A DNA stretch of 64,000 nucleotides from NCBI RefSeq assembly GCF_006542275.1, contig NZ_CP041217.1:5396501-5460500 (forward strand), read 5' to 3'. The translations under genes and the position numbers were made by a program. Positions 12,255 to 55,919 of this stretch are shown here, piece by piece. Source of the DNA: Saccharibacillus brassicae. GTDB lineage: Bacteria > Bacillota > Bacilli > Paenibacillales > Paenibacillaceae. Positions within the stretch are counted from its first letter, which is position 1. Each line of letters starts with the position of its first letter. The notes below the pieces were generated by a model. It saw only the letters and a program-made list of their open reading frames with translations, did no database searches and was not told the DNA's origin.

Positions 12255-12572
12255 ATGGATATCGGAAGCAAACTGCGCTATTTGCGCAAAGCACGTCATC
12301 TCTCCTCGGTCGAACTCGCTCAACGTGCGAACGTCTCTCAATCCTCGATCAGCGATATCGAATGCAATCGTCGCTCTCCCCGGCTCAATACGTTAAGCAG
12401 CCTCAGCCGCGCGCTGGGCATCCCTTTGTCGGAGCTGCTCCCGGTCGACGATCTGCTTGAACATCCTCTAAAAGAAGAAGAACGGCAGCTGCTCGATCTG
12501 TTCGGCCGCATGAACGAATCGCAGCAGCAGAATTTGTTGGAGCTGCTCCAAAGTTTTTCCGCAAAATCATGA
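12255..12572 (+). CDS. XRE-family helix-turn-helix regulator
   Basis: A 105-aa Cro/CI-type DNA-binding protein. The helix-turn-helix occupies roughly residues 5-60 (LRYLRKARHLSSVELAQRAN, then SQSSISDIECNRRSPRLNTL). The C-terminal 45 residues are helical, acidic and Gln-rich, and may dimerise, as in SinR-like proteins. Targets are unknown. It converges on the Tad-like operon whose last gene ends 35 bases downstream, so a link to that operon is possible but unproven. Confidence 0.85.
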   Translation: MDIGSKLRYLRKARHLSSVELAQRANVSQSSISDIECNRRSPRLNTLSSLSRALGIPLSELLPVDDLLEHPLKEEERQLLDLFGRMNESQQQNLLELLQSFSAKS

Positions 12573-12606: not shown

Positions 12607-13590
12607 TCAAGGTTTCGGTCGCCGGATCGGAAAATAACCGGACTGCGCCGCTTCCCGCTCGCTGCCGAACGTCTCCTCGTTCGGGGCCGGAAGCTCGGCA
12701 CGGTCGCGCGAATAATAACGGATGCCGCTGATCGGATCGGCCGCTCCGTACACCTGCTTGGTTCGGACCAGCCTTCCTCCGCCGAACGCGTAATGGTTGT
12801 ACGCCTGATCGCCGACCGGAATCCCCTGCAAAAAAGCCGCGATTCCGATATCGTCGATACCGTTGTCCCATTCTTCGCGCGAAATTTGCGGAAGCGTGAA
12901 CAGATAATCCACTCCGTAGCGCGCCGCATATCGATTATGCCGGTGAATGGCATGCGCCAGGTCGTTTTGGATCCCGTTCAGGATCGTCCGCCGGCGCACG
13001 CTCTCGAACGTATCCGCATCCTTCAATAGAGGAACATTCGTCTCTGAAGCGATCTCTTCCCGCATTCCCTGCACCCAGACCTGCCGGCTTCGATCATGGA
13101 TCTTCACGAAGCGGTCCAGCGTAAACTGAATGACAGAACCGCCGGCATCCGAGTAGGCGTACGGTTTTTTGGGCGACCATACCGCCCGGAGCTGCGTTTG
13201 TCCGCCGGAATCGACGAATGACTCTGTCGCATAGATGAAGTAACCGTCGTAATCGATGACCGCGATCGCGGGCACGTAAGCGGCGAGCGCGCCGAGCGCA
13301 GCGGGATCGTCTCCCGTGCCCATATTCAGCGCCAGCGAACGATAGAACGTCTCGACCGCGCGTTCTTTGTCCGTTCCGAGAAATTTCCGCGAACCGTAAC
13401 CCGGCTGATCGCCTTGCGCCGTCGTATCGTTCAGTACGTAACCGGCATCCTGCACGGCCGTTCGAAGCATGGCGTCGTAGCGGCTGCTCAGCCGCAGGGC
13501 GGTATGCTGATCGTCCAGATGTATAGAAGCGATCCGAAACACCGGGAAAAAGATCAAGACGAACAGCAACGCGAAATTAACGATCTTCAT
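12607..13590 (-). CDS. Tad-like operon: membrane-anchored extracytoplasmic protein (gene 10)
   Basis: A 327-aa protein with one N-terminal hydrophobic segment (residues 3-22) and a long soluble, probably extracytoplasmic domain rich in aromatic and charged residues. No known domain was recognised. It has the layout of a TadE/F-like minor pseudopilin, but is larger than most. Its ATG lies inside the end of the preceding gene (14-base overlap), so it is translationally coupled as the last gene of the operon. It could be the tip or adhesin of the machine; this is inference from position and topology. Confidence 0.75.
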   Translation of the reverse strand: MKIVNFALLFVLIFFPVFRIASIHLDDQHTALRLSSRYDAMLRTAVQDAGYVLNDTTAQGDQPGYGSRKFLGTDKERAVETFYRSLALNMGTGDDPAALGALAAYVPAIAVIDYDGYFIYATESFVDSGGQTQLRAVWSPKKPYAYSDAGGSVIQFTLDRFVKIHDRSRQVWVQGMREEIASETNVPLLKDADTFESVRRRTILNGIQNDLAHAIHRHNRYAARYGVDYLFTLPQISREEWDNGIDDIGIAAFLQGIPVGDQAYNHYAFGGGRLVRTKQVYGAADPISGIRYYSRDRAELPAPNEETFGSEREAAQSGYFPIRRPKP

Positions 13591-14128
13591 TGAGAACCAT
13601 TCCTTCGTAATTGAGCGCTACCGTGGCGTTTTCGTCCGTATTGTCGTTCATCAGGAAATCCCACAGCTGCACGGCCGCGGTACGGTTGACGTTCTCAAGC
13701 TTGATCCCGATATAATCGCCCACCTGCATGTCGTAACGCCGGGCGGGGTCGTCCGCGCTGGAGATGGGGTTCGGGAACAATACCGCCAAAATCTGTTCGT
13801 TGTAAAATCCGTCGTAAAAAGCAGTGAACCGATTCTTGAACGTCGAAGGATCGGCCGGGTCCCCGTATTCCGGAACATACCTTTTGCGCAGATGCTCCAG
13901 CCGCACCTCGTACGGATTGCCGGTTGCGGCCAGCTGCGCGTTAAACGTCTCGTACATCTGCGGCGTAATATACCCTTTGGTGCGGGCGCTGTCGACAAAA
14001 CGGGTCACCGCCGCCTGAACGACAAGGTTTGCGATTTTGTCCTGGCTGCGCGCCTGTTCGTACAGCGGATACATAAACAACAGCAAGAGGCTCAGCAAAG
14101 CCGCGAAAATGCCGGTTATGTAGTTCAT
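13577..14128 (-). CDS. Tad-like operon: single-span pseudopilin-like protein (gene 9)
   Basis: A 183-aa protein with an N-terminal membrane segment (about residues 5-23) and a soluble domain. The layout resembles TadE/TadF minor pilins, but there is no canonical prepilin cleavage motif (G followed by EY at +5). It overlaps the previous gene by ATGA and the next by 14 bases, so its product is probably made in fixed ratio with them. Unknown family. Confidence 0.72.
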   Translation of the reverse strand: MNYITGIFAALLSLLLLFMYPLYEQARSQDKIANLVVQAAVTRFVDSARTKGYITPQMYETFNAQLAATGNPYEVRLEHLRKRYVPEYGDPADPSTFKNRFTAFYDGFYNEQILAVLFPNPISSADDPARRYDMQVGDYIGIKLENVNRTAAVQLWDFLMNDNTDENATVALNYEGMVLNEDR

Positions 14129-14511
14129 GTCCCGCTCCGGAACACCATTTTGTTTAACGTACCGTCTGCGCTTCTCTCATAGAACGCCCGGTAAGCGAGC
14201 TTAACGTTCAGGATCGCCGGATCGACGTTGTCTTCATTCGAACCGGATCGATACAGCTTCCCGTTTACCTCGATATCGGCTCCGTCTTCTGCGAGGCCGC
14301 GAATCATGAGCAGGATCTGTGCGCCGGAATAACGTTCTTCGTAATCAAGGCCGAGTTCCGTTTTGATTTTGCCGTCCTGGTCGGTGTTCAGTTCGTAGGC
14401 CAGCCGCGTTCCGGCGTCGATCGACCTTGCGACATCCGCCGCATACGTACAGGCGCCGATGAACAAAGCAAACATGGCGGCCAGCGTCATAAAACTTTTT
14501 GTATTCCCCAT
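14125..14511 (-). CDS. Tad-like operon: small membrane-anchored protein (gene 8)
   Basis: A 128-aa protein whose start is set at the ATG at 14511, preceded by GAGGAGA. A longer frame from 14547 has no ribosome site. Hydrophobic residues 6-22 (MTLAAMFALFIGACTYA) form a membrane anchor or signal peptide; a Cys sits in GACTYA, but no convincing lipobox. The rest is charged and acidic. It couples to gene 9 by an ATGA overlap. No family was recognised; the position suggests a minor pseudopilin. Confidence 0.7.
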   Translation of the reverse strand: MGNTKSFMTLAAMFALFIGACTYAADVARSIDAGTRLAYELNTDQDGKIKTELGLDYEERYSGAQILLMIRGLAEDGADIEVNGKLYRSGSNEDNVDPAILNVKLAYRAFYERSADGTLNKMVFRSGT

Positions 14512-14571
14512 ATCGGTCTCCTCGCCCCTCGCCGCCTTCCGCCCCATACGGAAGACGGTAAAGATTCGGCT

Positions 14572-15036
14572 TTATTTCGCCTGCGTAAATACGATGCCGC
14601 GTACCATATTGTTGGCATCGCGCACGATCGAAGATTTGAATTTGCCCGACGGATTGATGAAGTTGTTGTCCGCTTCGTTCAACGCCGGGCTGAGCGCCTT
14701 GTTCTTGGTCTCGCCGGTAATGACGCCCGTCGTCTGGTTGAACTGGCTGCCGTAGTACGTGGCGCCGCCTTTGCCGGTCAGGACGTACACGCCGAACTGC
14801 TCGTCGTTGTTGTACTGCCGTACGGCGTTCATGACCTGGCTGCCGGACAGCGTCGTATTCTCGTAAATATTGAAGCGGGTCTGCGACAGCTGTGTCTGGA
14901 TCGTCGAAAACTGGGTTTGTCCTTCTTTGGCCGCGTCCTGCGAAGAGATGAAGATCACGACGACCGTCGTAATCAAAGCCAGTGTCAGAAAAATGCCGGC
15001 GGCCAATTTCAAACCCGAAGTTGCGTTGCTTCCCAT
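14572..15036 (-). CDS. Tad-like operon: pilin-like single-span protein (gene 7)
   Basis: A 154-aa protein with a strongly hydrophobic segment at residues 10-31 and a Gln/Asn/Thr-rich domain, typical of exported pilin-like subunits. AAGGAG precedes the ATG. No Flp-type cleavage signature is visible, so it may be held in the membrane uncleaved or processed by an atypical enzyme. It directly follows the TadB/C-like gene, the usual place for pilin-like genes, and is the best candidate for a major structural subunit. Confidence 0.7.
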   Translation of the reverse strand: MGSNATSGLKLAAGIFLTLALITTVVVIFISSQDAAKEGQTQFSTIQTQLSQTRFNIYENTTLSGSQVMNAVRQYNNDEQFGVYVLTGKGGATYYGSQFNQTTGVITGETKNKALSPALNEADNNFINPSGKFKSSIVRDANNMVRGIVFTQAK

Positions 15037-15074
15037 AGATAACAGTCTCCTTTATACGATACATGGATTTGGAT

Positions 15075-17153
15075 TTAGATTTGGCCCAGTCGGGCAATCA
15101 GGTCTTTCATCTGCATAAACGACACGTACAGAAACGGAACGATAATATAGGCGCCGAGCATGAACATGACGGGAGCGAAGCCGATATCCCGGCCCCAACT
15201 CGCTTTGTTTTCGATCAGCCGGTCCATCGTTTCTTTTTTTTGTTCGCGGTAATACTCCTGTTCCATTTCCAAATCGTCGAACGCTTCCTGGATCGACAAA
15301 TGCTCCAGCGAATTTTCCAACCGTTCGATCAACCGGATAAAAGCAGGAAACGGCGCTTCGTGCTTCAGTTCAGCCAGCGCGGCGGCAGCGCCTCCGTCAA
15401 AATCGAGCAGGCAGCGCTGAAGCGCCGGCTTGAAGATCACCGCAAACCGTTCCAGCCACTCCAGCAGAATCTGCACGCTCATCCGGTCGAATTGGCTTAG
15501 AATCGAGATCAGCATTCGGAACTGGTCGACTTCGCTCTGCATATCCATACCGCGCACCCGGCGCTGGAAACGCAAAATGCCTACGGGAACGAACGATGCG
15601 GCCGCTCCGGCTGCGACAGCAAGCAGCAGCTCCCACGCTTTCAAATATTCGTCGTTCATCCGATCCAACTTCCGGGCGATGCGGACCGCCGCTTCATTCT
15701 GCTCCGCTTCGCCAAGTACCGCCCCGGCCGTATCCCGTACGCGTCTGCGCAGCGCTTCCTCCACGTCGCCCCGCATCCCTCGAAATTCATCCATGATTTT
15801 CCGGTCGAATGCTGTTCGCCGTTCGGCTTCCGCGCGTTCCGCTCCGTCGACCCGCCCGATCATGAGGCCGCCTTTTGGATACGTCGGCGCTTCCCGCACG
15901 CGCTGGATCATGCTGCCGTGGACGGACACGAACATCAGCGCCGACAGCAGGCCGACCGACAAGCCGAGCAGCAGCCGCCTGAGCGTCAGCCATTCAAGCA
16001 GAAGCGGCGAATTCGACTCTTTGAGCAGCCGGGAAAGATCGCTATGCGCTTTCGTATGCTTTTGCGGCACGAAACGATCAACGACGCAGCGAACGATCCG
16101 GTATTCGTACAATTTCTTTTCCCAGCGGATACCTCCGGGCTTGGGCACATACCGCGACTCTTCCGTTTCCGCCAGTTTGCGAATAAGTACGTACGCCGCT
16201 ACCGCTATCGCGTACAGCAGCAGTTTGGACGCCATGCCGATCCGTCCTTCGTAAAACTCGCCCATGAGCGGAAAATAATGCTCGGCCCAGCGTTCCAGCG
16301 GAAACGACAGCAGGATCGGCGCCAGCGCGATCAGGGTCAGGCTGTTCAGCTGATAACTGAGCCGGCTGCGGCGCAGCAGGTCGAAGTTGATGTCCTGCAC
16401 GAATTTGCCGATCGCGTTCAGGTACAGGGAACCTTTCGCCGTCGCTTTGTCTCCGTATTCCATAATCATGCAGGCGACACCCGTGAATGCTTTCAAATAC
16501 CGATTGGGCGCCACTTCGTAATACGCCGACAGGCTGCGCTCCGGGTCTTTGGCTGTCAGCACACTGTGCATCTGTTCGCCATGCAGTCTCATGTTGTGTC
16601 CGGCAAGCTGCGCGGCTTCGTAGATCGCTTCGTCTGCCATCCGGCTGGCCTGAAACTGGTGCCGGTTGTCTTCCAGAAAATCGCGAAAATGTTGGAGCAG
16701 CCGATTCTCCGCCCGATGCACGAACACGTCGATCAGCATGCCGTTCAGGACGAGGCAGCCGATCGCCCCAAGCAGCGTGACGGAGAAGCTGCGTCCGAGC
16801 AGCGTCAAAGCAAGCAGCAGTCCGATACTAATCAGCAGGACGGCATACGTGATCTTCATCGTTTCTTTGCGCAGCGTCATTTCGTCATACGGCCCCATGA
16901 TTGCCAAGCGCTGGCGAATCCGCCGGAGCTGTCCGCCAAGCAGCGGGAACTTCGCGGAGCGCACATATGATCGTTGATAGAAGCGATTGAACGCCGGATT
17001 GCCGGGTCCCGCTTGAGCCTTTCGATTCATCCAGCTGCCGCGCGGCTCCTTGCTGCCCGAAGCTTTTTGGCTTCGTCGCTTCAGGATCAACACCAGCACG
17101 AGCGGCACAAGATACAGAATCAACGCCAGAATGATCCACCACTTCAGGCTCAT
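15075..17153 (-). CDS. TadB/TadC-like inner-membrane platform protein (fused)
   Basis: A 692-aa polytopic protein that seems to join the two platform proteins of Tad systems. The N-terminal half has a lone span at residues 5-23, a paired span near 105-145 and a GspF-like cytosolic helical domain. The C-terminal half has a further helical domain (roughly 545-650, EQFRMLISILSQF-type pattern) and a final span near 660-680, as in TadC. A long charged region around 430-500 separates them. It overlaps the CpaF gene by ATGA. The platform role, converting ATPase motion to assembly, is known for the family; that this is a fusion is my reading of the topology. Confidence 0.78.
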   Translation of the reverse strand: MSLKWWIILALILYLVPLVLVLILKRRSQKASGSKEPRGSWMNRKAQAGPGNPAFNRFYQRSYVRSAKFPLLGGQLRRIRQRLAIMGPYDEMTLRKETMKITYAVLLISIGLLLALTLLGRSFSVTLLGAIGCLVLNGMLIDVFVHRAENRLLQHFRDFLEDNRHQFQASRMADEAIYEAAQLAGHNMRLHGEQMHSVLTAKDPERSLSAYYEVAPNRYLKAFTGVACMIMEYGDKATAKGSLYLNAIGKFVQDINFDLLRRSRLSYQLNSLTLIALAPILLSFPLERWAEHYFPLMGEFYEGRIGMASKLLLYAIAVAAYVLIRKLAETEESRYVPKPGGIRWEKKLYEYRIVRCVVDRFVPQKHTKAHSDLSRLLKESNSPLLLEWLTLRRLLLGLSVGLLSALMFVSVHGSMIQRVREAPTYPKGGLMIGRVDGAERAEAERRTAFDRKIMDEFRGMRGDVEEALRRRVRDTAGAVLGEAEQNEAAVRIARKLDRMNDEYLKAWELLLAVAAGAAASFVPVGILRFQRRVRGMDMQSEVDQFRMLISILSQFDRMSVQILLEWLERFAVIFKPALQRCLLDFDGGAAAALAELKHEAPFPAFIRLIERLENSLEHLSIQEAFDDLEMEQEYYREQKKETMDRLIENKASWGRDIGFAPVMFMLGAYIIVPFLYVSFMQMKDLIARLGQI

Positions 17154-19042
17154 GCCGGCTCACTTCCCCAGTACCGATCCAGAAACGCATGAAAAGCGGC
17201 GGCGTCTTCCCGTGACATATTGCCGGCCATCAGCTGCACTTTTCCCGGAGTCGGGCGCTGCACGGGTACGTAAGCGCCGTCCCGAAACGCGATGATGTCG
17301 CGGACTTCGAACGTGCGCCCGGTCATCCGCCGGTAATAACTCAGCTGCGCCTGCGCCAACACGTTCAACGCCTCCGCTTCGTTCGTGCCGGCGGCAAGCT
17401 TTCGGCCGAGCTCCGCGAACGATTCTTCGTCCGGATCGAGCGCGACGCATTCGGTCACGCGCTCGATATGACGGGTGCCGTCGCGTTCTTTTTCCAAATG
17501 CACGTCGAACGCGATCACGCTGGCCACCTGTTCCTCGGCGATCCGCTCGTTCTGGAACGTGCCTGTCTTGAGCAGCGAATTGCGCAGCGACCAGATCAGG
17601 TCTTTTGTCGTTTTGGCATGATGGCTGAATACCGTGAACTTGCTAGCCACCTGGGACATCTGCACGGCCCACGCCGCCACGGGGTCGGTCGCCACTTCGC
17701 CGAGAATATTGACCGCGCCGTCCGTTTTCTTCTGCAGATCCAGCCCCTCCTGCCCGCTGATATGGTCCGTTTCGCGGAAAGCCAGCGTGTTACGCTCGGG
17801 ATATAATCTGCGCAGATGCAGCTCGAACGCCAATTCCTGTATCCGCAAATTGAACGTGCCGTAGATGCTTTTGACCATCGCCATCAGCAGCGTCGTTTTG
17901 CCCGAACCTTGTTCCCCCGTCACGGCCGTCACCTGCGCACCTTTCATCAAGTAGTCGAGCATCCGGATCGGCAGATCGGAATGGTTGCCTTCCTCAGCGC
18001 CGAGCAGGCGCTCCAGGCTGAGATTCGGCAGATCGAATTTGCGGACGAAAAACGCCCAACTCTCGGAAAAGGGAGGCCGGACCACGACGACCCGCGAACC
18101 GTCCCGCATCTCGTTGATCCGATAAGCTTTCGCTTCCGACAGCTGTCCGGGACTGCCGAATTTGTAAATGTTCTGGCAGACCCGCTTGAGCTCAAGCAGG
18201 CTGCCGAAGCCGAGAAAAGCCAGCCGGATCGATTTGCCGCGATAGAAAATCCATACGCTGTCGCAGCCTTTGGGCGTCTCGCCGCGCATGGCACGCAGCA
18301 GCTCGACTTCGTCTTCCGTCTCGCGCATGTCCGGCAGCAGGCCGGATACGCCGCCCGATACGCCGTCGATCGTCTGGTCGCGCAGTTCGTCGATCGGCCC
18401 AAACCCTTTGTACTGCTGGTAGACGCGCTGCACGACAAGCTGCAGTTTGTCTTCAAAAGACAGGCGGGGCGCTTCGGCGCCGTAAATGGCTCTTATTTCT
18501 TCACCCGTAATAATATACGATTCGGTCGCCGCGTTCTCGATGACGAACTTCGGATCGGCAAGGCCGTGCTTGTCGATGAGCACGGTCAGAGCTTGCATTC
18601 CGTGTTCCCGCTTGTACGCATGCAGCAAAATATCGAACTTGTCCGTATCGGTCAGCAGGCGTTCGTCGCCGAACGGCAGGATGCGGTCGATCGTCGCTTC
18701 GCTCACGGCGCCGCCCCGCAGCAGCAGATCGGAGATAAACGATTTGACATACGTCTTGTCGGGCAGGCTGCCGGCATTGCACGTCTTGAGCGAACTTTTG
18801 AGTTCGGCTACGACGTTTCTCCGGCGTTCGAATTCTTCCGCCGACAGACCCAAATCGAGTAGGTTCGCATTGGCGAATTCGTTGATCGCCGCTGCCGCGT
18901 ACCGCTGGAGGTCGTCGATCGTCAGCAGCTCGTCTTCCGCTTCTTCGCCTGCGGCAGCCGCATTTCTGCGCAGCGCAAGCAAGAGCCCGAGCGCAAGCCC
19001 GCCGACAATCGCCGCGATCAGCATCGAATTGATTCCGTCCAT
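17150..19042 (-). CDS. CpaF/TadA-family secretion ATPase with N-terminal membrane anchor
   Basis: A 630-aa hexameric-type traffic ATPase that powers pilus assembly or secretion. Walker A is GEQGSGKTTLL near residue 385, and a Walker B-like NILGEVATDP lies near residue 462. The SHHAKTTKDLIWSLRN stretch corresponds to the His box of CpaF. Family members are normally cytosolic, but this one begins with a clear transmembrane stretch (IAAIVGGLALGLLLAL). The helical domain at 40-170 resembles the CpaF N-terminal domain. Start: ATG 19042, with GGGAG 11 bases upstream, somewhat distant. It ends inside the start of the TadB/C-like gene (ATGA). Confidence 0.88.
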   Translation of the reverse strand: MDGINSMLIAAIVGGLALGLLLALRRNAAAAGEEAEDELLTIDDLQRYAAAAINEFANANLLDLGLSAEEFERRRNVVAELKSSLKTCNAGSLPDKTYVKSFISDLLLRGGAVSEATIDRILPFGDERLLTDTDKFDILLHAYKREHGMQALTVLIDKHGLADPKFVIENAATESYIITGEEIRAIYGAEAPRLSFEDKLQLVVQRVYQQYKGFGPIDELRDQTIDGVSGGVSGLLPDMRETEDEVELLRAMRGETPKGCDSVWIFYRGKSIRLAFLGFGSLLELKRVCQNIYKFGSPGQLSEAKAYRINEMRDGSRVVVVRPPFSESWAFFVRKFDLPNLSLERLLGAEEGNHSDLPIRMLDYLMKGAQVTAVTGEQGSGKTTLLMAMVKSIYGTFNLRIQELAFELHLRRLYPERNTLAFRETDHISGQEGLDLQKKTDGAVNILGEVATDPVAAWAVQMSQVASKFTVFSHHAKTTKDLIWSLRNSLLKTGTFQNERIAEEQVASVIAFDVHLEKERDGTRHIERVTECVALDPDEESFAELGRKLAAGTNEAEALNVLAQAQLSYYRRMTGRTFEVRDIIAFRDGAYVPVQRPTPGKVQLMAGNMSREDAAAFHAFLDRYWGSEPA

Positions 19043-19045
19043 GTT

Positions 19046-19891
19046 CTACGAAACTCCCTTCGCGGCATCGACATGCTTCAATCTCGTATTGATGCCGATC
19101 TCTTCGAGCAGCTTCTGCGCCGTGCGGCGCGCTTCGGCGATAAAGCGGTAATTGCCGTGCTTGCGATCGAGCGTCCGGCTTCTGGCAATAAATCCTTTGA
19201 TATCCCCGTCGTTGACCGCATCGCGGAAATCGGAATTGTAAGGCAGCGTCAGCGCCGAGTCCCGGTGTCCGTATTTGCGCAAAATGCTGGAAGCTTTGTA
19301 TTTGGAATCCGGGTCGTAACCGGAGAACAGCAGCAGCTGCTTTTTGCCATGCAGCTGCTCCGGCCAACCGCTGCGATCGAAATACCGTTCCAGCATGCCG
19401 ATATTTTGATTGAGGCAGACGACGACCAGATCCGCGTCTTCCAGCACCTGAGCGGCCGCTGGACTGTCGGCTCCCGAACGGACATCGAGCAGGATGCAGT
19501 CGTAATACGCGCGGGCGTTGGCATAGATATTTCCGATCAATCCGCCGGCATTTTCGAACTGCAGCCGGTTCATCCGTTCGGAACCGCTGAGTAGATCGAG
19601 GCGATGGCGTTCGATCATTAGAGCATTGTTTTTGACCGTTTCGCGTTCGAGCTTCCCGCTGCGGGCCAACCTGACCAGCGCGTCGAGTCCCGTGCCCGCT
19701 TCCGCCGCCTGGTCGCGGCCGTAGACGTTGATCGAGCGGGCAAAGGCCCGCTCCAGCGTATTCTCTTCGCCCTGCGGCTGCGAGACGAGCGTCCGAATGC
19801 CGTATTCGCTTCCGATCAGCGCAGCGAGCGCGCCTACGGAAGCGGTCACCCCCGTTCCGTGCCCGATTCCCCAAAATGCGATTTGTCCCAT
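19046..19891 (-). CDS. TadZ/MinD-like protein with degenerate P-loop
   Basis: A 281-aa ParA/MinD superfamily protein, the position and fold expected of TadZ/CpaE, which localises the pilus machine. The start is ATG 19891 with GAGGAG upstream; the longer frame from 19951 lacks one. The N-terminal loop reads GIGHGTGVTAS, where ParA proteins have KGGxGKTT. The signature and catalytic lysines are missing, so ATP hydrolysis is doubtful. YDCILLDVRSG corresponds to the Walker B-like switch region. It lies 3 bases before cpaF. Confidence 0.78.
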   Translation of the reverse strand: MGQIAFWGIGHGTGVTASVGALAALIGSEYGIRTLVSQPQGEENTLERAFARSINVYGRDQAAEAGTGLDALVRLARSGKLERETVKNNALMIERHRLDLLSGSERMNRLQFENAGGLIGNIYANARAYYDCILLDVRSGADSPAAAQVLEDADLVVVCLNQNIGMLERYFDRSGWPEQLHGKKQLLLFSGYDPDSKYKASSILRKYGHRDSALTLPYNSDFRDAVNDGDIKGFIARSRTLDRKHGNYRFIAEARRTAQKLLEEIGINTRLKHVDAAKGVS

Positions 19892-19892
19892 T

Positions 19893-20564
19893 TTATTTGC
19901 TCCTCTCGGCTCTGTTCCAGAGCTTGCGCATTTCCCTTCGATCCAGCCCAAGCAATACGGCGGCTATGCCCTGCACCGCTTTTCTCATCGCCGGAGACAG
20001 CCCTTTGAGTCTCAATCGGCCGGCATATTGATTGCCGATCTTGAGCGCCAGATCCCGTTCATCGGGATAATAGACGAAAGATTCTTTCCAATCGATCGGG
20101 AACGTTTCGAACTGTTCGGCGATATACGCTTCTCCCGGTTCGCTCGCTTCCTCGATTCGCACGGCGCGAAAAGCGCACAGCTCGGCGAGCGGCCGCCGTA
20201 AGAAATAGCCGTTCAGGAGCCGGACGCAGCGCCGAACCGACGCGTGTTCGCAGCCGCCGACCAGAAAACGGTAGGCCGTGTCCGGAAATGCCGGCAGCCG
20301 CCGCGGATCGTCCGTATCGTACAAGACGACGTCGTAGCCTTCTTCGAACCCGGACTTGGCGCCTTCGGCCGGAATCCAGACGTCGAATCCGTCATATTCC
20401 CGCGGTTCGCCCGGAACGTCCAATGCGGGAAAAGAAAACTCGTAGCGCTGCCCCGCCGTATAATCGACGATCAGTACTTCGCGTCCCGCTTCCGCCAACA
20501 TTTTCGCCACGTAAAACAGCAGATCCGTTTTATCGCGGTCTCCGATAAAAACAGCGGTACTCAA
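19893..20564 (-). CDS. Degenerate ParA-like protein of the Tad-like operon
   Basis: A 223-aa protein that starts with TTG at 20564, overlapping the previous stop (TTGA). MSTAVFIGDRDKTDLLFYVA followed by EVLIVDYTA has the beta-loop-alpha-beta order of MinD/ParA, but the Gly-rich loop is lost. YDVVLYDTDDPRR resembles the second acidic strand. A C-terminal basic helix may bind membrane or a partner. It is 1 base before the TadZ-like gene, so the two may work as a heteromer. The fold is inferred from pattern only. Confidence 0.65.
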   Translation of the reverse strand: MSTAVFIGDRDKTDLLFYVAKMLAEAGREVLIVDYTAGQRYEFSFPALDVPGEPREYDGFDVWIPAEGAKSGFEEGYDVVLYDTDDPRRLPAFPDTAYRFLVGGCEHASVRRCVRLLNGYFLRRPLAELCAFRAVRIEEASEPGEAYIAEQFETFPIDWKESFVYYPDERDLALKIGNQYAGRLRLKGLSPAMRKAVQGIAAVLLGLDRREMRKLWNRAERSK

Positions 20565-21472
20565 TGCGCTTCCCCCTCGGCGGCAGCGGCGTCTTCCCTA
20601 TCCGGGAGCAGCGCGTTATCCTGCGTGCCGGGATTGACGACATCCAGATTGGCTTTGCTGTTCAAATATTTCTGGATCTCTTCCGGCGTCAGCAGATCCA
20701 GTCCGTTCTCCAGCTTCTCGCGCCGGCGCCGCTCCAGTTCCGTGACGGCCCGCTGCACGATGTTCGGATCACTCCCGATCAGGTCGAGCACGCTCGCGTT
20801 CGACGGATAAGTCACGACCGCTTCCGCCTGCAAGCCGGGTTCGACGTAAGTCAGCGCATAGATCGAAGCATCGTTCAGGTACGCGTCGACAATGGCCGAA
20901 GACATCGTCAAAATTTCCCGTTCGCTCATGCGAATCCATACGGTGCCCGCAGACAGGTCTTCCGCCCGCTTTTTCGACAATACGATAAAATCTTCGCCGG
21001 TCGGGAATTTGACGCGCACGTCGACGAATTCGCCAGCCGCCAGCCGGGTCGGCAGTTCGATCAACCGAAACTCCTGATTCCGCACGTCGCTGGGCATAAC
21101 CGCTCCTTCGTACAGCATCGATTCGCTGACCGGCGTATTGCGGGCCAGCGCCACTTTGGCGAACCGGCCGACCGCTTCCGTTTTGGTCGGAAGGTTGTCG
21201 GGCACCGTCGCTTCGACGACTTCGATCTGCGCCAGATCTGCTTCGCCAATCTTTTCTCCGGCGCGGATATCCCGTGTCAGCGCAAAAACGGGGACGCGCC
21301 GCGCATCCATGTCCGCAATCTGGCGTTCGTAGTCTCCGCGCTCCGCTTCGTAACGGTTCTCGATGGAACGGATGTACGGCAGACCGGCCGCCGTGCAGAT
21401 CAGCAGGGCGGCGGCAGCCCCCGCTCCGGCGGCCAGCAGACGCTGCCGCTGTCGAAATCTCATTCTTGACAT
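20561..21472 (-). CDS. CpaB/RcpC-like SAF-domain protein
   Basis: A 303-aa protein with an N-terminal span (about residues 12-32), a short coiled segment, and a SAF domain starting at VFALTRDIRAGEKIGEADLA. RLAAGEFVDVRVKFPTGEDF is typical of CpaB/RcpC and FlgA relatives. In Tad systems this protein is periplasmic and steadies the channel; in a Gram-positive it would lie between membrane and wall. GGGAG lies 8 bases upstream of the ATG. It ends by overlapping the start of the next gene. Confidence 0.8.
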   Translation of the reverse strand: MSRMRFRQRQRLLAAGAGAAAALLICTAAGLPYIRSIENRYEAERGDYERQIADMDARRVPVFALTRDIRAGEKIGEADLAQIEVVEATVPDNLPTKTEAVGRFAKVALARNTPVSESMLYEGAVMPSDVRNQEFRLIELPTRLAAGEFVDVRVKFPTGEDFIVLSKKRAEDLSAGTVWIRMSEREILTMSSAIVDAYLNDASIYALTYVEPGLQAEAVVTYPSNASVLDLIGSDPNIVQRAVTELERRRREKLENGLDLLTPEEIQKYLNSKANLDVVNPGTQDNALLPDREDAAAAEGEAH

Positions 21473-21490
21473 GATTATGCTCCCTTCGTT

Positions 21491-22942
21491 TTACCGAAAT
21501 CCCAACTTCAGCCGCGAACGTCGTTCCCTCTTGGCATACAGCGTGCCCAGAATCGGCTCGAACGCTGCCCGGCATTGTCCCCCGAACGGATCGGGCAGCA
21601 GAGGCAGCGCATATACGTGCTTGCTGCCGAGCCGGCCGCGCAGTTCCCGAATGTCTTCGCTCGCCGCGAACGGCAGCACATATCTCCACTTCGGCCGCGC
21701 TCTCAAGCTCTCGCGGCGAACGAAAGCGTCCCACTCGCCGCTTCTCCATTCGCGGCCCGAACCGACGACTACCGGAACGTCGGCCCGCTGAAACTCTTCG
21801 AAATCCCCGGCGTCCCCGCACAGTCCCAGATCGAGCACCACATGCCGGTATCCCCGGCCGAACACGTCGGCCAACCGTTCCCGGCCCGCATCCGGCCAAT
21901 AATCCACGCCTCCTACGCTGAACGTCGGCCGGTCTCTGAGCGGCTCTCCTTCCCATTCCAGCGCGATCTGTGCGAAACTTCCCGCCCGCCGGTCCAATTC
22001 GACGATTGCGGTACGCCCGCCTTCGCGGGCCAGCGTATGCGCCGCGGCAATCGCGGTATGCGTCACGCCGCAGCCGCGGAACAAACCGAGCACCGCGACG
22101 GTCGACGTTCCGATCCCGCCCGCTCCGGCTTGCGCCAATTCGCTTGAAGCACCGACCGGCCGAACAAGCCGCTTGATCTCCGCGATCGAGGCGTAGCGGT
22201 CTTCCGCGCGGTAACTGAGCATTTTGCGAATCGCCGCTGCAAGCGGCGGCGGCAGATCCGGACGCAGCGCCCGCTGCGCTTCCGGCGTCCATGCGCTGAA
22301 CTGCCCGCCCGTGCACAGATGCAGCAGCAGCGCACCCAGCGCGTATTGGTCGCTGGACGGTTCGCTGCGTCCTTCGTACTGCTCGGGAGCAGCGAAGCCG
22401 ATCGTGCCGAGTTTGACCGTATCGTCAAGCCGCCCCGGACCCGTGCTGCGCGCAATGCCGAAATCGATCAGCCGAACGGCTCCGTCTGCGCCGATCATCA
22501 CGTTGCCGGGCTTCAGGTCGCGGAACACGATCGGCGGGCTCTGCCCGTGCAAATAGTCCAGCACGTCGCAGATCCGCAGCGTCAGTTCCAGCACGAACGC
22601 AAGATCGGGACGGCCGCCGCAGCGCGCCGCGTATTCCCCGAGGTTCATGCCTTCGATGTATTCCATCACGAGAAACACTCTTCCGGACGCGTCAGGCGAC
22701 AAAAAATCGACGACCTGCGGCAAACTCGGATGGCGCAGCCGGGTCAGCATGCGCGCCTCGTTCCCGATCCGTTCGTAATCCTCCGTAGCGGCCAACGTTT
22801 CCTTGACGGCCCAGCGCTTGCCCGGAAGCTTCGCATCGGAAGACAGATACACCCTCCCCATGCCGCCGCTTCCGAGCACGCGTTCCACCCGGTATCGTTC
22901 GCCGATGACCGTTCCCCGCTCCAATTCAGCCGGCTTCGGCAT
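21491..22942 (-). CDS. Ser/Thr protein kinase fused to a ParA/MinD-like domain (first gene of Tad-like operon)
   Basis: A 483-aa two-domain protein. Residues 16-275 are a PknB-like kinase: Gly loop GSGGMGRVY, ATP lysine Lys47 in AVKE, catalytic loop FRDLKPGNV (Asp142, His of HRD replaced by Phe), DFG at 160-162 and APE in GFAAPEQY. Residues from about 290 have a ParA-like fold with a degenerate loop, LFRGCGVTHT. There is no transmembrane segment or PASTA repeat, unlike PrkC. Start: ATG 22942 with AGGAGG upstream; the longer frame from 23011 would run through a terminator hairpin. It leads the operon, so phosphorylation probably controls assembly or placement of the machine. Confidence 0.88.
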   Translation of the reverse strand: MPKPAELERGTVIGERYRVERVLGSGGMGRVYLSSDAKLPGKRWAVKETLAATEDYERIGNEARMLTRLRHPSLPQVVDFLSPDASGRVFLVMEYIEGMNLGEYAARCGGRPDLAFVLELTLRICDVLDYLHGQSPPIVFRDLKPGNVMIGADGAVRLIDFGIARSTGPGRLDDTVKLGTIGFAAPEQYEGRSEPSSDQYALGALLLHLCTGGQFSAWTPEAQRALRPDLPPPLAAAIRKMLSYRAEDRYASIAEIKRLVRPVGASSELAQAGAGGIGTSTVAVLGLFRGCGVTHTAIAAAHTLAREGGRTAIVELDRRAGSFAQIALEWEGEPLRDRPTFSVGGVDYWPDAGRERLADVFGRGYRHVVLDLGLCGDAGDFEEFQRADVPVVVGSGREWRSGEWDAFVRRESLRARPKWRYVLPFAASEDIRELRGRLGSKHVYALPLLPDPFGGQCRAAFEPILGTLYAKRERRSRLKLGFR

Positions 22943-22963: not shown

Positions 22964-23024
22964 AAAAAAAGAAAGCATCCCTCGTGGCCGGGGTCCGAAG
23001 ACCGAGTCCATGAGGGATGCTTTC
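22964..23024 (-). terminator. Intrinsic terminator of the RlmM-like gene
   Basis: Perfect 13-base arms (22971-22983 with 23012-23024) enclose a second paired segment. They are followed on the minus strand by seven T. It separates the methyltransferase gene from the Tad-like operon. Confidence 0.9.
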
Positions 23025-23094
23025 CCTGTTTTGCCGCTGCTATGATTTTGAAGTCATTATAAACCGGCTGCTTGCCGACTGTAAAGACCTATTT

Positions 23095-24171
23095 TTAATA
23101 CTTGATCATGTACAGCGTAATTTCCTCGCGATTGTGGAACAGCTGCTTGGAGCGCTGAACCTGCAGGCGGGAACCTTCAAGCGACGCGATCACTTCCTTG
23201 ATCAGCGCCATCGGCTTTTTGTGCATCAGCTTGATAGTGATGATCGCCGTCCCGCCGGGCGCAAGCGCGTGCAGCAGACCCGTCACCAACTGAACCATCA
23301 GTTTGGGACTCCAGCTCATATCGCACACGAGCAGGTCGAACTCGTTGTCGCGGAATTTGATCTCGCTCGCATTTTTGCGGATATAGGTCAAATTCGGCAT
23401 TTTCAACAGCGAAGGATGCAGCTTGGCCGGATCGACCGCCGTCACTTTCAGCCCGCGTTCGAGCAGCAGCGATGTCCATCCGCCCGGCGCCGCGCCGATA
23501 TCGACCGCGCTGCGGTAAGCCGACAGATCAAGACCGAATTCCCGCTCCGCTTCCAGCAGTTTGAACTTGGCGCGCGACAGCTGTCCTTCTTCCCGGCGAA
23601 ACCGAACGGCTCCGCCGCTCCAGTCCGACAAGTTGTCTTCCGGACGCGAAATGCCCGCATAGACGCCGGACGGCGTGACGTAGACCGAGACGATCCAGTC
23701 GGCGCCTGCCGAGACGAATTCCGCTTCCGACCCGCGCAGCAGCTCTTCCAGCCATTCTTTGAGCTGCGGCGCGCTGTCGCCTCCGGCGCCTTCGCTTTTG
23801 CGTACCTGCAGCGCCGCTTTGATGCCCGCCGCAAGCAGGCCGCTGCCCAACACGAACCCGGCGGCCGCCGACAGCAGTTCGCCGACGTTGTCGCCTTCGC
23901 GTTCGAATTGAACAGGTTGGACGTGACGCAGGAAAATCGGACGGCTGTCCGTCATTTTCCGTACCGCTTCTTCCGCGCCGGTATTCAATTTGACCAGCAG
24001 CACTTCGCGGTCGCTCAGCACGCTGCTTTTGACCGATCCGAACAGACGGCGCAGCTCTTCCTGCGCGTAAGCGGCGAAATCCCGGTTGGCGGTGCAAATA
24101 AACGTGCTTTCTTCCGGCAGCGCGTCCGCCGCTTCGATCGGTTCTACGTGTTCTTGTTCATGCTCGCTCAA
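23095..24171 (-). CDS. RlmM/FtsJ-like ribose 2'-O-methyltransferase
   Basis: A 358-aa SAM-dependent RNA methyltransferase. The C-terminal Rossmann domain has motif I AVDIGAAPGGWTSLL, the acidic LLVCDMSW and the catalytic lysine in IITIKLM, as in RrmJ/RlmM enzymes that methylate the 2'-OH of 23S rRNA. The N-terminal 150 residues are weaker and may be a THUMP-like RNA-binding part. The start is TTG at 24171 with GGAGGG nine bases upstream. The exact nucleotide modified cannot be assigned. Confidence 0.82.
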   Translation of the reverse strand: MSEHEQEHVEPIEAADALPEESTFICTANRDFAAYAQEELRRLFGSVKSSVLSDREVLLVKLNTGAEEAVRKMTDSRPIFLRHVQPVQFEREGDNVGELLSAAAGFVLGSGLLAAGIKAALQVRKSEGAGGDSAPQLKEWLEELLRGSEAEFVSAGADWIVSVYVTPSGVYAGISRPEDNLSDWSGGAVRFRREEGQLSRAKFKLLEAEREFGLDLSAYRSAVDIGAAPGGWTSLLLERGLKVTAVDPAKLHPSLLKMPNLTYIRKNASEIKFRDNEFDLLVCDMSWSPKLMVQLVTGLLHALAPGGTAIITIKLMHKKPMALIKEVIASLEGSRLQVQRSKQLFHNREEITLYMIKY

Positions 24172-49395: not shown

Positions 49396-51621
49396 TTACG
49401 CAGCGGAAGTTGGGAAGTTTCCTCCTCCAGACGGCGCCAACGTTGCACTGCCATGATTGTGATTTGGAAGGGTGACAGAATGCGAATGTCCTTTGTCCGA
49501 CTTATTATTCAAAGCGTTCCAGATTCTATTCATTTCACTCTGGAGTCCCACAATATCTGTGATTGCGAGTGTCAGACCGCTCACACTCCCTAAAAAGTTC
49601 ACTGTACTATTGAACGTCGCCGGCCCAACCATAGTTGCCGCGCCCTGCAAGCGGATCGGGTTGGCCGTATTGTTCGATCCCAAAAAAAGGTCGTTGCTGA
49701 AAATCGTCAGCCCGCCATTTTGGTACGAATTCAGCTCCCCGGCAAATCCGCCGCCGGAACCGAAGAAGCCCAACGATGCGATACTGCTGTCCGTGCTCGT
49801 ATTGATACGTATGCGCACCGTCCCGCCGCTATCGTACGCTTGTAGGCCGCCGGCTGCCTGCTCGATTCTGCGCCCGCTCTCCGCCGTTTTAAACGTGGAG
49901 CCGATGATTACGCTGCCGCGCACCGTAGACGACTCGACCTCTCCGGAGAACCGCGCTGCCGTCGCGCTCATGATGCCGCCGGACGTCACCGTGAACATGC
50001 CGTTGCCGACGTTGATCGACGACCCAGTGATGGCGCCGTTCGTGAAATTCGAATAGGCGATGTTCGCGTAGTTGGCCGTGAGGCTGTTCGCGACGACATC
50101 GCCCCTCATGTTCAGGCGGAACGCTGCCGCATCGAAGACCGACGCTCCCGCGGAGATGCCGCGCGTATTGATCTGCACGACGTCCTCGCCGCTGCCGATC
50201 AGCATCGAGACGAAGTTACCGAACTGCCCAATGACCGCCTCCGCCACGACGCGGCCGCCGACGACCGCCGCGCGCGCCGTCTTGCCGCCGTCGGAGCTGA
50301 TCAGGATGCCCGCGGCCGTAAGCCGGACCTGATTCAGCGGATTCGTCTTATCCTGCGCAAGGATACCGCCCTCGAGCGGGTAGCTGATCTCCGTCTTGCT
50401 GTTTTTGATGTCGATCACCGCCTGCCGGGCGAACGATTCGAAAATGTCCGCCCGGATACGGCCGCCGGATAGCATGCCGTTGACGATGTTTTTGGCCTGG
50501 TCCAGATCCGCGATGATGTCGTTCCAGTCCGGCCGGACAAAGTTGGCCACTGTCGCTTTGGCATGCTGATCCAGCGCAAACGGATACTCGCTCAGCTCCG
50601 TGACCCGGGCTTTCATGTTTTTCAAGCTCATTTCCGGATCGTACACGTACACGATGTCGCCCAGCCCTGCCGGCGGGTTCGATCCGTCCAGCTTGTGCAG
50701 GTCGGCCGTGTCGATCTGCACTTCCAATTCTGGCACTTCTTTCTTTGCCAGCTCTATGCGCGCTGCCTCCAGCAGATCCTTCGGCTCTTCAATGTCCTGG
50801 TCGCTCATTTCGCCGTCGAAGAATGGGATGTCCTGGCTTGCCCAAGCGCCGGCGTATTGCGAAACAAGGAAGTTGGACTGCAGCACGCCGCCAACGATCG
50901 CGCCCGGCACCGCTTCGAGCCGTGCCCGCTCGTCCGCCGTCAGGATCGAAGCCGGCTGCCCGATCCACGTCCGGCCGTCCTTCATGGTCGCGTACATCCG
51001 CGTAACGAGGTTCGACGACTCGTCCTTAAACTGGTCGTTGACGATGTTCTTTTTCAGGCGGTATTGGTGTCCTTTGTCTTGGCCGATCTGCTTCCGCAGA
51101 TAAATGACATGATTGTCCGGCTCGACTTCCATGCCGTACTGCTCCACCAGCGCGTTGAGCGCTTCCAGGCAGTTGCCCCGCCCCCAGTCCTTCACGTCGC
51201 GCAGCCCAAAGTCGTCCTCGATCCGGAATTGGAAGAGTCCGCCCGTAACGTCCGTGATCCGCTGCAGCAGCACGCTGACCGGGATGCCGTACCGCTCCTC
51301 GACATACAGATCATACGGGATTTTGAATTCTTTCAGCGTGTACATGATGTGCGAGCACACGATTTGTGCCGTTAGCTGCTTGCCGCCGCGAACCCGGCTC
51401 CGCCCATTGATCACGTAATACTGGCCGCGCTCGTCCCGCACGTGGCCTTTCATCAAGATTTTTTCCCGGTAGTCAGCCGACTGCATGGGCACCGTGAATG
51501 TCAGCTCATAGTCCGAATTGATTCGCCGCTGCCGCTGGACGCTGCTCGGGTCCACATCTTTGAGGATGCCGATCCGCCGGCGGTTTTTGTCGAACGACTC
51601 CAAATATTTTTGTTTTTGCAT
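49396..51621 (-). CDS. Phage tail endopeptidase/minor structural protein (Tal-like)
   Basis: A 741-aa baseplate protein. The N-terminal 370 residues have the gp27/Tal-like pattern of siphophage tail-associated proteins (YLESFDKNRRRIGILKDV, VKDWGRGNCLEALNALVEQY). The C-terminal half is Ala/Gly/Asn-rich with beta-helix-like repeats (VNGMLSGGRIRADIFESFA, ANYANIAYSNFTNGAI) that probably contact the receptor. The ATG at 51621 has GAGG eight bases upstream; the frame is open from 51627. It follows the Dit-like C-terminal protein gene. Confidence 0.82.
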   Translation of the reverse strand: MQKQKYLESFDKNRRRIGILKDVDPSSVQRQRRINSDYELTFTVPMQSADYREKILMKGHVRDERGQYYVINGRSRVRGGKQLTAQIVCSHIMYTLKEFKIPYDLYVEERYGIPVSVLLQRITDVTGGLFQFRIEDDFGLRDVKDWGRGNCLEALNALVEQYGMEVEPDNHVIYLRKQIGQDKGHQYRLKKNIVNDQFKDESSNLVTRMYATMKDGRTWIGQPASILTADERARLEAVPGAIVGGVLQSNFLVSQYAGAWASQDIPFFDGEMSDQDIEEPKDLLEAARIELAKKEVPELEVQIDTADLHKLDGSNPPAGLGDIVYVYDPEMSLKNMKARVTELSEYPFALDQHAKATVANFVRPDWNDIIADLDQAKNIVNGMLSGGRIRADIFESFARQAVIDIKNSKTEISYPLEGGILAQDKTNPLNQVRLTAAGILISSDGGKTARAAVVGGRVVAEAVIGQFGNFVSMLIGSGEDVVQINTRGISAGASVFDAAAFRLNMRGDVVANSLTANYANIAYSNFTNGAITGSSINVGNGMFTVTSGGIMSATAARFSGEVESSTVRGSVIIGSTFKTAESGRRIEQAAGGLQAYDSGGTVRIRINTSTDSSIASLGFFGSGGGFAGELNSYQNGGLTIFSNDLFLGSNNTANPIRLQGAATMVGPATFNSTVNFLGSVSGLTLAITDIVGLQSEMNRIWNALNNKSDKGHSHSVTLPNHNHGSATLAPSGGGNFPTSAA

Positions 51622-51631
51622 CAGCATCGCC

Positions 51632-52153
51632 TCAGTACAGGTATTTGTCTTTGTGCGTGATCCGCGTCAAGACCGAGCGCTGCGCTTCCTTGTCGGAGTA
51701 CGTCAGCGTGTTGACCCCGCGGATCAGCTCAAGGAAGTCGCCTTCCATGAGGTGCAGCGCGTTCTCGCCGTTGATCGTGACAGTCATTTCGGTCGAGTCG
51801 ATTTCGATTCGCGCGCCCGGCGGGAAATCTCCGGTAAATCGGATTTCTTCCACTCGCGCCCGCACGACTTTGGCAAGCATTTCCGTCTGCATTTCAAACT
51901 CGGCGCCAATCAGCATTTCGCGGACGATCTGCGCCAGCATTTCAATTTGCGTCTCAATCGTGGCCTGAAGTGCGCTCTCCCGAATAAATGAAGCTTCCAT
52001 TTCGGTCTGCGTTTCGAAAATGGCGAATAGCGGCGCCTCGACGTTTATCCTCGCTTCAAATTCCGTTTGCGTCTCAAAAGTTACGGCCAGCGCAATCTCA
52101 AGCGAAGCGGCCCGGCCGAACGGTGTACGCCCGAATGGGCTTGTATTAAACAC
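51632..52153 (-). CDS. Phage tail protein with Dit-like C-terminal domain and 20-residue repeats
   Basis: A 173-aa protein. The start is the GTG at 52153 (MFNTSPFGRTPFGR is a typical phage opening) with AAAGGCGG upstream; ATG 52171 and 52204 are weaker. Four tandem 20-residue units with an E-x-QTEME-type core run over residues 22-105. The C-terminal GDFPPGARIEIDSTEMTVT then GENALHLMEGDFLEL resembles the last part of Dit (distal tail) proteins. It lies just before the tail endopeptidase gene. Confidence 0.75.
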   Translation of the reverse strand: MFNTSPFGRTPFGRAASLEIALAVTFETQTEFEARINVEAPLFAIFETQTEMEASFIRESALQATIETQIEMLAQIVREMLIGAEFEMQTEMLAKVVRARVEEIRFTGDFPPGARIEIDSTEMTVTINGENALHLMEGDFLELIRGVNTLTYSDKEAQRSVLTRITHKDKYLY

Positions 52154-52233
52154 GGCATCGCCGCCTTTCATGAATAAAAATGCCCCCGGTAGTCCCAAGG
52201 GCATAAAAATAACCGCTCCCGGATCGGGGCGGT

Positions 52234-52374
52234 TTACTCGGCTGCGGCCGGCTCGGCCAGCATTTCGTCAACGATCGGACGGAGCGTCGGCGATACGTCT
52301 TCAATAGCCAGGCGGCCCGCCATGATCAGGACCACGGCGTTCCCGGCCAGCATGCGTTTCAGTTTTTCACTCAT
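52234..52374 (-). CDS. CD1375-like small phage protein
   Basis: A 46-aa protein, ATG 52374 with GGGGGTGA upstream. VVLIMAGRLAIEDVSPTLRP IVDEML has the layout of the CD1375 family, short proteins commonly placed between tail fibre and tail genes. An in-frame ATG at 52446 (70 aa) also has a possible site, so the start is uncertain. Confidence 0.65.
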   Translation of the reverse strand: MSEKLKRMLAGNAVVLIMAGRLAIEDVSPTLRPIVDEMLAEPAAAE

Positions 52375-52447
52375 CAGTTTCTCACCCCCTCTCGTAGCCA
52401 TCCAGATTCCTAAACGAAAGGCAGCGGCGTAGATCCGGCTGCGCATA

Positions 52448-52840
52448 TCAGCCCTCCATAAGCGACATGAGCATTTCGCCCAGGCCGTTGATCATTTCTT
52501 TATTGTCCAGATCGGCCGCGCGCAGCCGCGCGACTTCTTCCTCAAGAGAGTTTTTCGGCGGCGAAGGGACTTCATTCGGATCTGGTTCGGGGCGGGCTTC
52601 GAAAACCGGTCGCCTCGTTTGCGGGTCGATCCGCGCAAGCTTTTGGCTCGAAAACTCTTCTTCGTACTCGCCCCATCCAAACTGCTGCATTTCGATCCCT
52701 TCTTTCCCGATCAGTTCCGGGTGCCAATCTCTGGGGTCGTTATCTTTGTAATAGTCGGTGACTGTCGTCTCAATCGTACCCGTCTGGAATACGATAGCCC
52801 CTTCACTATCAAAATAAACTCGCGGTCCGTATTTATACAT
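52448..52840 (-). CDS. Phage tail-region protein of unknown function
   Basis: A 130-aa acidic protein with AAGGAGG before the ATG. It has a Trp/Tyr-rich start (YKYGPRVYFDSEGAIVF) and a helical C-terminus. Position beside the tail spike gene suggests an XkdW-like or tail-fibre accessory protein. No motif identified. Confidence 0.65.
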   Translation of the reverse strand: MYKYGPRVYFDSEGAIVFQTGTIETTVTDYYKDNDPRDWHPELIGKEGIEMQQFGWGEYEEEFSSQKLARIDPQTRRPVFEARPEPDPNEVPSPPKNSLEEEVARLRAADLDNKEMINGLGEMLMSLMEG

Positions 52841-52851
52841 AGTTGGCCTCC

Positions 52852-55497: not shown

Positions 55498-55507
55498 GGG
55501 GTCCCCC

Positions 55508-55912: not shown

Positions 55913-55919
55913 CGTTCAA

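Follow-up and report, generated by a model that had tools for sequence, protein, structure and literature searches.

A conserved Tad-related operon behind a kinase-ParA fusion gene and a leader hairpin in Saccharibacillus brassicae

Introduction

Prepilins are defined by a leader that is cleaved by a peptidase, and TadB and TadC are products of the splitting of a two-domain platform, according to the available sections of the Pelicic review (PMC10191384). The Walker A motif of TadZ is atypical, according to the portion available of Denise 2019. Kinases beside Tad genes have their nearest precedent, as far as its accessible text goes, in a survey of type VII secretion systems (T7SS; PMC11217815), in which T7SSg and T7SSh adjoin Tad genes and the T7SSf ATPase has a TadZ-like receiver domain. 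Here we describe a ten-gene operon related to Tad loci, led by a gene for a Ser/Thr kinase fused to a ParA-like domain, in a stretch of 64,000 nucleotides from Saccharibacillus brassicae (NZ_CP041217.1). This stretch is called the window, and coordinates are window-based.

The pilus of Paenibacillus thiaminolyticus comes, in the part of PMC9765702 that is accessible, from a different, PilB/PilT-type locus, and the accessible part of a survey of Gram-positive type IV pili (PMC3244431) mentions neither Paenibacillus nor a kinase. Searches of the open-licence literature (kinase with Tad pilus, TadZ fusion, Paenibacillus Flp, leaderless pilins) gave no description of the operon or of the fusion. 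Taken as a whole, we read the locus, with a probability of about 0.5, as a filament machine of the Tad branch with leaderless subunits, lying behind an older kinase gene and an attenuator-like leader.

Results

Gene order and conservation

The genes, in the order K, B, Z1, Z2, F, T and p7 to p10, are listed in Table 1. The initial annotation described ten coupled genes with overlapping ends, and this was borne out. All ten open reading frames (ORFs) lie on the minus strand where it had placed them (12607-22942), with overlaps of 4 bases between F and T (ATGA, 17150-17153), p8 and p9 (ATGA, 14125-14128) and B and Z1 (TTGA, 20561-20564), and of 14 bases between p9 and p10 (13577-13590). The intergenic gaps are 18 bases between K and B, 1 between Z1 and Z2, 3 between Z2 and F, 38 between T and p7 and 60 between p7 and p8, the last counted from a p8 start set at 14511, where by eye the ribosome site is better.

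Synteny was followed in 120 operon loci, made up of 40 loci and the best 80 loci of a second, named and independent collection, with gaps in BLAST detection of p7, p8 and Z1. The gene order from B to p10 is kept in the first 20 loci compared, apart from one locus cut by a contig end (L038) and BLAST misses of p8 (L040, L045) or of p8 and Z1 (L050). In the second collection the core order B-Z1-Z2-F-T is kept wherever the contig reaches, p7 and p8 being mostly undetected by BLAST in the Clostridia loci. The ten-gene operon is real and conserved, and its order is not due to chance.

Table 1. Features of the operon and its leader, in order of transcription
Feature	Position in window	Strand	Description
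Promoter	23056..23085	-	sigma-A-like; -35 TTTACA 23080-23085, spacer 18, -10 TATAAT 23056-23061
Hairpin	22971..23026	-	in K 5' leader; 5' arm GGGAAAGCATCCC; followed by T run 22964-22970; terminator/attenuator-like
K	21491..22942	-	Ser/Thr kinase (residues ~10-262) fused to TadZ/CpaE-like ParA domain (~270-483)
B	20561..21472	-	membrane-anchored SAF protein, CpaB-like
Z1	19893..20564	-	degenerate ParA/TadZ-like protein
Z2	19046..19891	-	second ParA/TadZ-like protein
F	17150..19042	-	CpaF/TadA-like assembly ATPase with N-terminal extension
T	15075..17153	-	probable one-piece platform protein; N-half TadB-like
p7	14572..15036	-	pilin-like protein without leader
p8	14125..14511	-	leaderless paralogue of p7
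p9	13577..14128	-	leaderless single-span protein
p10	12607..13590	-	leaderless single-span protein

The kinase-ParA fusion and the other leaders

Where members of the CpaE/TadZ family have a receiver-like N-terminal domain, K has a protein kinase domain (Pfam Pkinase, E 8.3e-29, residues 17-214). K47, E62, D142, N147 and D160-F-G are invariant in the alignment of kinase sequences (16/16), and the catalytic residues are those expected of an active Ser/Thr (Hanks-type) kinase. The remainder of the protein matches a TadZ/CpaE profile (E 4.5e-7). The Walker lysine is missing, by eye, from the P-loop of K (GxGxTH pattern) and from those of Z1 and Z2. The fusion is genuine.

Leaders were counted in the 119 of the 120 loci in which B was found (L138 is cut), genomes in both sets being counted twice. 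The operon is led by a kinase-ParA protein in 44 loci, a receiver-like-ParA protein in 15, a CpaE-like protein in 6 and another ParA protein in 1. None was detected in 53, of which 7 have less than 2.5 kb upstream. The initial annotation had the operon led by a kinase-ParA fusion; this holds for the genus Saccharibacillus and for many Paenibacillus, but does not extend to the whole operon family, in which other leaders or none are found. The ParA part of K matches that of the receiver-like leaders with a profile E of 1.8e-60, so that the two kinds of leader have one ParA module in common. The name "receiver-like" is a reading of the sequence, since this N-terminal domain gave no match to CpaE-type N-termini (E 0.36) and no Pfam receiver match. 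An extra gene stands in front of 12 of the 15 receiver-like-led operons, and the one tested (L043) gave a weak GGDEF match (Pfam 0.012, below the cut-off). The product in front is a membrane protein in L043 (13987-15090), and also in L044, L045, L056, L084-L090 and L096; the GGDEF match of L043 hints at a cyclic-di-GMP-type input.

The leader hairpin

K starts at an ATG at 22942, downstream of AAGGAGGG; an alternative, longer ORF starting at 23011 would run through the hairpin. The same-strand gene upstream (23095-24171) codes for an FtsJ-type methyltransferase, and the promoter begins about 10 bases past its stop. The order in the leader is thus promoter, hairpin, T run, ribosome site and K, and the leader of the window (171 nucleotides) folds with a z of -5.5.

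The 5' arm, exact or nearly so, was found in 43 of the set formed by the window and the 44 kinase-led loci, or 39 distinct leaders without copies. The two exceptions are L110, which by eye has another hairpin at the same place, and L145, which has none by motif. MAFFT aligned the 3' arms poorly, and folding of each sequence was therefore used instead of a covariance model: each of the 39 distinct leaders gave a fold with z under -3 in which 6 or more of the first 8 bases pair with the 3' end. There is almost no sequence variation in the 5' arm, while the upper stem varies freely. The exact 13-mer is present in 38 of the 44 kinase-led loci, against 0 of the 75 other-led loci. A wider pattern, run over whole genomes, gave 98 sites in 96 of 290 genomes (reversed control, 1), and just one in the genome of S. 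brassicae itself. Among the matches listed, 84 of the 98 sites lie beside K, and four more lie beside a kinase gene (L068, L227 twice, L228); the other ten may be chance.

The element was not found upstream of operons without the kinase, where a crude scan from approximate gene starts gave scattered terminator and promoter matches. Rfam gave no match up to E 1 in the window between 12000 and 26000, and in eight relatives, at the gathering level, three thiamine pyrophosphate riboswitches, all outside the K leader. The idea that the K leader contains a known riboswitch was rejected, the Rfam search being without a match there. No competing antiterminator was found by eye. The hairpin, newly noted in this work, is very conserved, is associated with a single gene and has no match in Rfam. 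Its most direct reading would be transcription attenuation.

The machine core

B has a SAF match (E 6e-11) and matches CpaB model TIGR03177 at E 4.6e-8, below that model's cut-off. Z1 matches the TadZ/CpaE profile (E 8.5e-8), and Z2 matches the ParA part of K (profile E 5.6e-8) but TadZ/CpaE only weakly (3.8e-4). The match of F to the genome's own CpaF has a profile E of 5e-14; F also matches TIGR03819 at E 1e-7, below its cut-off, and Pfam T2SSE at no better than E 0.042, and its Walker A residues, G448-E449 and H475 are invariant in 31/31 sequences.

The N-terminal half of T, taken as a profile of 105 sequences, matches TadB over 233 columns (E 1.9e-5, reversed control 0.087) and TadC weakly (0.0022). 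Single TadB and TadC sequences gave weak matches (E 0.02 and 0.006), and the match of the N-terminal half came from the deeper profiles alone. In four Clostridia loci (L140, L149, L155, L157) the two halves of T are separate ORFs. T may keep, or have regained, the joined state of the platform. An internal repeat in T was sought by profile and rejected (E 0.09 and 0.014). Up to E 1, Z1, Z2, p8 and p9 have no Pfam match, and T, p7 and p10 have no meaningful one.

The genome of S. brassicae has a second, separate Tad locus of the standard kind at 4.09 Mb (L052 6430-17349), so the window operon is an additional system. This locus contains CpaF (T2SSE 4.7e-59), TadB and TadC (T2SSF 1.1e-10 and 7.8e-15), TadE-like proteins, a peptidase (1.2e-20), a ParA-type protein taken as TadZ, and an Flp1-like pilin with a class III-type leader. 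It also has a DUF6382-FHA protein, which might read kinase marks.

The single-span proteins

In p7, p8, p9 and p10 the membrane helix starts at median residue 4, 5, 1 and 1 respectively. The pattern [GA]xxxxE near the helix start was found in 0/76 p7, 0/66 p8, 0/103 p9 and 3/100 p10 sequences, one p8 and one p10 row without a helix by the cut-off being skipped. As a control, the genome's own Flp1-like pilin (Pfam E 3.7e-19) does carry a class III-type site of this pattern. Family scans of the ten products found no Flp or secretin family and no prepilin peptidase (TadV) family.

Profiles of p7 and p8 match each other with E 3.3e-12, and the two are paralogues; there is no convincing profile match between p9 and p10 (0.2) or between p9 and p7 (0.0075). 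The p7 protein, 97% identical to its nearest aligned relative, is modelled as one long helix (residues 2-56) followed by β-strands (predicted local distance difference test, pLDDT, 81; predicted template modelling score, pTM, 0.60), a predicted layout that is pilin-like. In most Clostridia loci where p10 was found it is enlarged to about 450-870 residues. Three of the Clostridia loci (L118, L150 and L157; 14.0-17.9 kb) show, by eye, a tandem array of several small p7-like ORFs whose N-termini are of the MENASKAL type, together with a much enlarged p10.

Distribution of F and K

The family sample consisted of 295 genomes, taken as Paenibacillaceae because contigs of the sample recur in the second collection under the names Saccharibacillus and Paenibacillus. 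F was found in 169 of them (E 1e-30), and in a phylum-wide sample in 5 of 398 genomes, all of them in the family. A restriction to the family was nevertheless rejected, because the second collection gave relatives from Clostridia and Tumebacillus. It holds at least 554 relatives of F, and the best 80 of these include 34 Clostridia by title and one Tumebacillus lacus, the remainder being Saccharibacillus, Paenibacillus and Cohnella. Several of the Clostridia record titles name animal-gut samples.

K is found more widely, with a match at E 1e-50 in 280 of the 295 family genomes. Its coverage is known for the 150 genomes listed, in each of which the match reaches residue 414 or beyond, and so covers the full fusion. 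F is present in 124 of these and, at E 1e-30, absent from 26, and the view that the fusion is a dedicated part of the operon was not upheld. At least 88 of the 150 listed K matches lie within 7.5 kb of F, among the 150 F matches listed. Twelve outlying K loci, chosen rather than random (mostly hairpins away from known places of F), contained the whole operon in 2 cases, K with Z2 in 2, and no operon gene found in 8. Separate kinase and ParA genes, a possibility raised in the initial annotation, were not seen: the two parts are fused in 12/12 of these loci, with a weak ParA match in two (E 3.4e-5 and 2.5e-4). The spread of K suggests that it predates its position in the operon. A search of plasmids gave one record with a near full-length K: L231 (NZ_CP013205.1, Paenibacillus sp. 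IHB B 3084), which is called a plasmid and has a K match, SAF and T2SS-type ATPase genes and chromosomal-type neighbours. Its annotation, in a gene table that declares itself incomplete, gives a SAF protein, a hypothetical protein and a T2SS/T4P/T4SS-family ATPase, with no listed feature for the kinase gene.

A tree of F was made from 86 rows by a quick method with no mixture, with the Clostridia thinned from 32 to 8 and a long-branch warning. The nearest named relatives of the window operon are from Saccharibacillus, with which it lies in a starred clade together with two leaderless operons. Its sister clade, also starred, comprises ten receiver-like-led operons plus one that lacks a leader. 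Both are separate from the main kinase-led clade (28 rows), and a further five kinase rows are found elsewhere in the tree. At least 3 changes of the kinase label are required, which are also forced by the starred branches, gain and loss being indistinguishable. This suggests that different operon subtypes came to lie behind K, another subtype having been placed there in Saccharibacillus, and speaks for a working link between K and the operon.

Elsewhere in the window

A helix-turn-helix regulator gene (12255-12572) converges on the 3' end of the operon. A prophage-like region (49396-63652) encodes a tail endopeptidase, a beta-helix protein and a protein of 2394 residues with NlpC/P60 and SLT domains.

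Discussion

On the basis of these observations, we propose that the nine genes from B to p10 would encode a filament-assembly machine of Tad (type IVc) kinship. In it, F would serve as the ATPase and T as a platform in one piece, B would be a part of the envelope resembling CpaB, and Z1 and Z2 would be degenerate TadZ-like proteins, with p7 and p8 as pilin-like subunits and p9 and p10 as minor subunits. The four subunits have no cleavable leader and would thus assemble without processing by a peptidase. K would be an older, separately conserved relative of TadZ/CpaE, with a Ser/Thr kinase where the family normally has its N-terminal domain. The operon follows immediately after K in Saccharibacillus and in many Paenibacillus, so that the promoter and leader of K would drive it; RNA polymerase must cross the terminator-like hairpin before it reaches K and the operon, and expression is thus probably set by attenuation. 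K would phosphorylate the machine or the Z proteins and in this way license assembly; in the initial annotation, phosphorylation would set where or when the machine assembles. The union of a kinase and a TadZ/CpaE domain gives a direct means of studying how Gram-positive cells turn on or position a pilus machine. A wider claim, which we put forward tentatively and regard as somewhat doubtful, is that this is a separate branch of type IV filaments in Paenibacillaceae and Clostridia, with leaderless pilins, no need for a prepilin peptidase and an unsplit platform, the Paenibacillaceae form being licensed by the kinase-TadZ fusion and the RNA attenuator. A widespread machine with nothing to cleave on its subunits would, if true, test the prepilin-leader rule.

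Several results speak against this proposal. The C-terminal half of T matches neither TadB nor TadC in profile comparison, 40 T proteins gave no Pfam T2SSF match up to E 0.05, the separately encoded halves of T from two loci gave none either, and the models of T and of p7 have no Foldseek match in PDB at E 0.001. A prepilin peptidase is present somewhere in 37/37 tested genomes with F, so that a search for peptidase-free genomes with the operon found none among the 37, which weakens the leaderless reading in its strongest form. Finally, K occurs without the operon, and 75 of the 119 operon loci are other-led or leaderless.

Among the alternatives, the one that survives best concerns the hairpin, which could merely end the transcript of the methyltransferase gene, as an intrinsic terminator and not as an attenuator of K. 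It stands just downstream of that gene, and the orphan K loci inspected by eye show no TTTACA/TATAAT between gene and hairpin. The promoter pattern is, however, present upstream of the hairpin in 32 of the 39 distinct leaders, and in the window it falls between gene and hairpin; the T run is there only 21 bases from the start codon, and the near-fixed 5' arm beneath a free upper stem is a further point against this reading. We therefore consider a terminator and nothing else somewhat unlikely.

Two further alternatives are, to our mind, slightly less likely. The ten genes may encode an ATPase-driven membrane complex other than a filament, for export, envelope remodelling or as a piston, in which CpaF-like and TadB-like parts are put to another use alongside four fixed single-span proteins. 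Leaderless subunits, a p7 without a pilin match in PDB and the lack of secretin and Flp families would fit such a complex, but the paralogy of p7 and p8 and the tandem p7-like ORFs in Clostridia are as expected of filament subunits. Equally improbable, in our estimate, is that K is functionally unrelated, the operon having entered behind a housekeeping kinase whose promoter it uses. K is widespread in the family and can stand alone, and many operons do without it. Against this, part of K resembles TadZ/CpaE, the same ParA module is found joined to a different N-terminus in operons elsewhere, and the kinase label needs at least 3 changes on the F tree, although gain and loss are indistinguishable there. 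An ordinary Tad pilus that borrows TadV and processing from the second Tad locus, with p7 to p10 processed unusually, is the least likely of the alternatives: the peptidases noted above, the finding of a TadC homologue in all but one of 59 family genomes and the suggestion, in the portion available of Denise 2019, that MSH loci without a peptidase of their own may borrow one are in its favour, but few residues precede the helix in p7 to p10 and a class III-like site is found in only 3 of 345 sequences.

Comparison with known systems

The proposed filament machine has three points of comparison. In the T7SSc-j of Bacillota the secretion machines are accompanied by kinases and by FHA and DUF6382 proteins; they differ in having WXG100 and EssC-type proteins, and the accessible text of the survey (PMC11217815) mentions no kinase-TadZ fusion. 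The CpaE/TadZ localisation ATPases resemble K in combining a ParA-like domain with an N-terminal partner domain and, as we read them, in lacking the Walker lysine, but in K this partner is a Ser/Thr kinase domain whose catalytic residues are invariant. With the Tad (Flp) pilus the operon has in common a CpaF/TadA-like ATPase, CpaB/SAF and TadZ/CpaE-like proteins and, in T, a probable platform with one half resembling TadB. It differs in having neither TadV nor an Flp pilin with a class III leader, in a probable platform contained in one protein, and in subunits that start at the membrane helix. The initial label of a Tad/Flp-like operon can thus be kept in part: by the matches of F, Z1, B and the ParA part of K the operon is related to Tad, but it is not an ordinary Tad/Flp locus.

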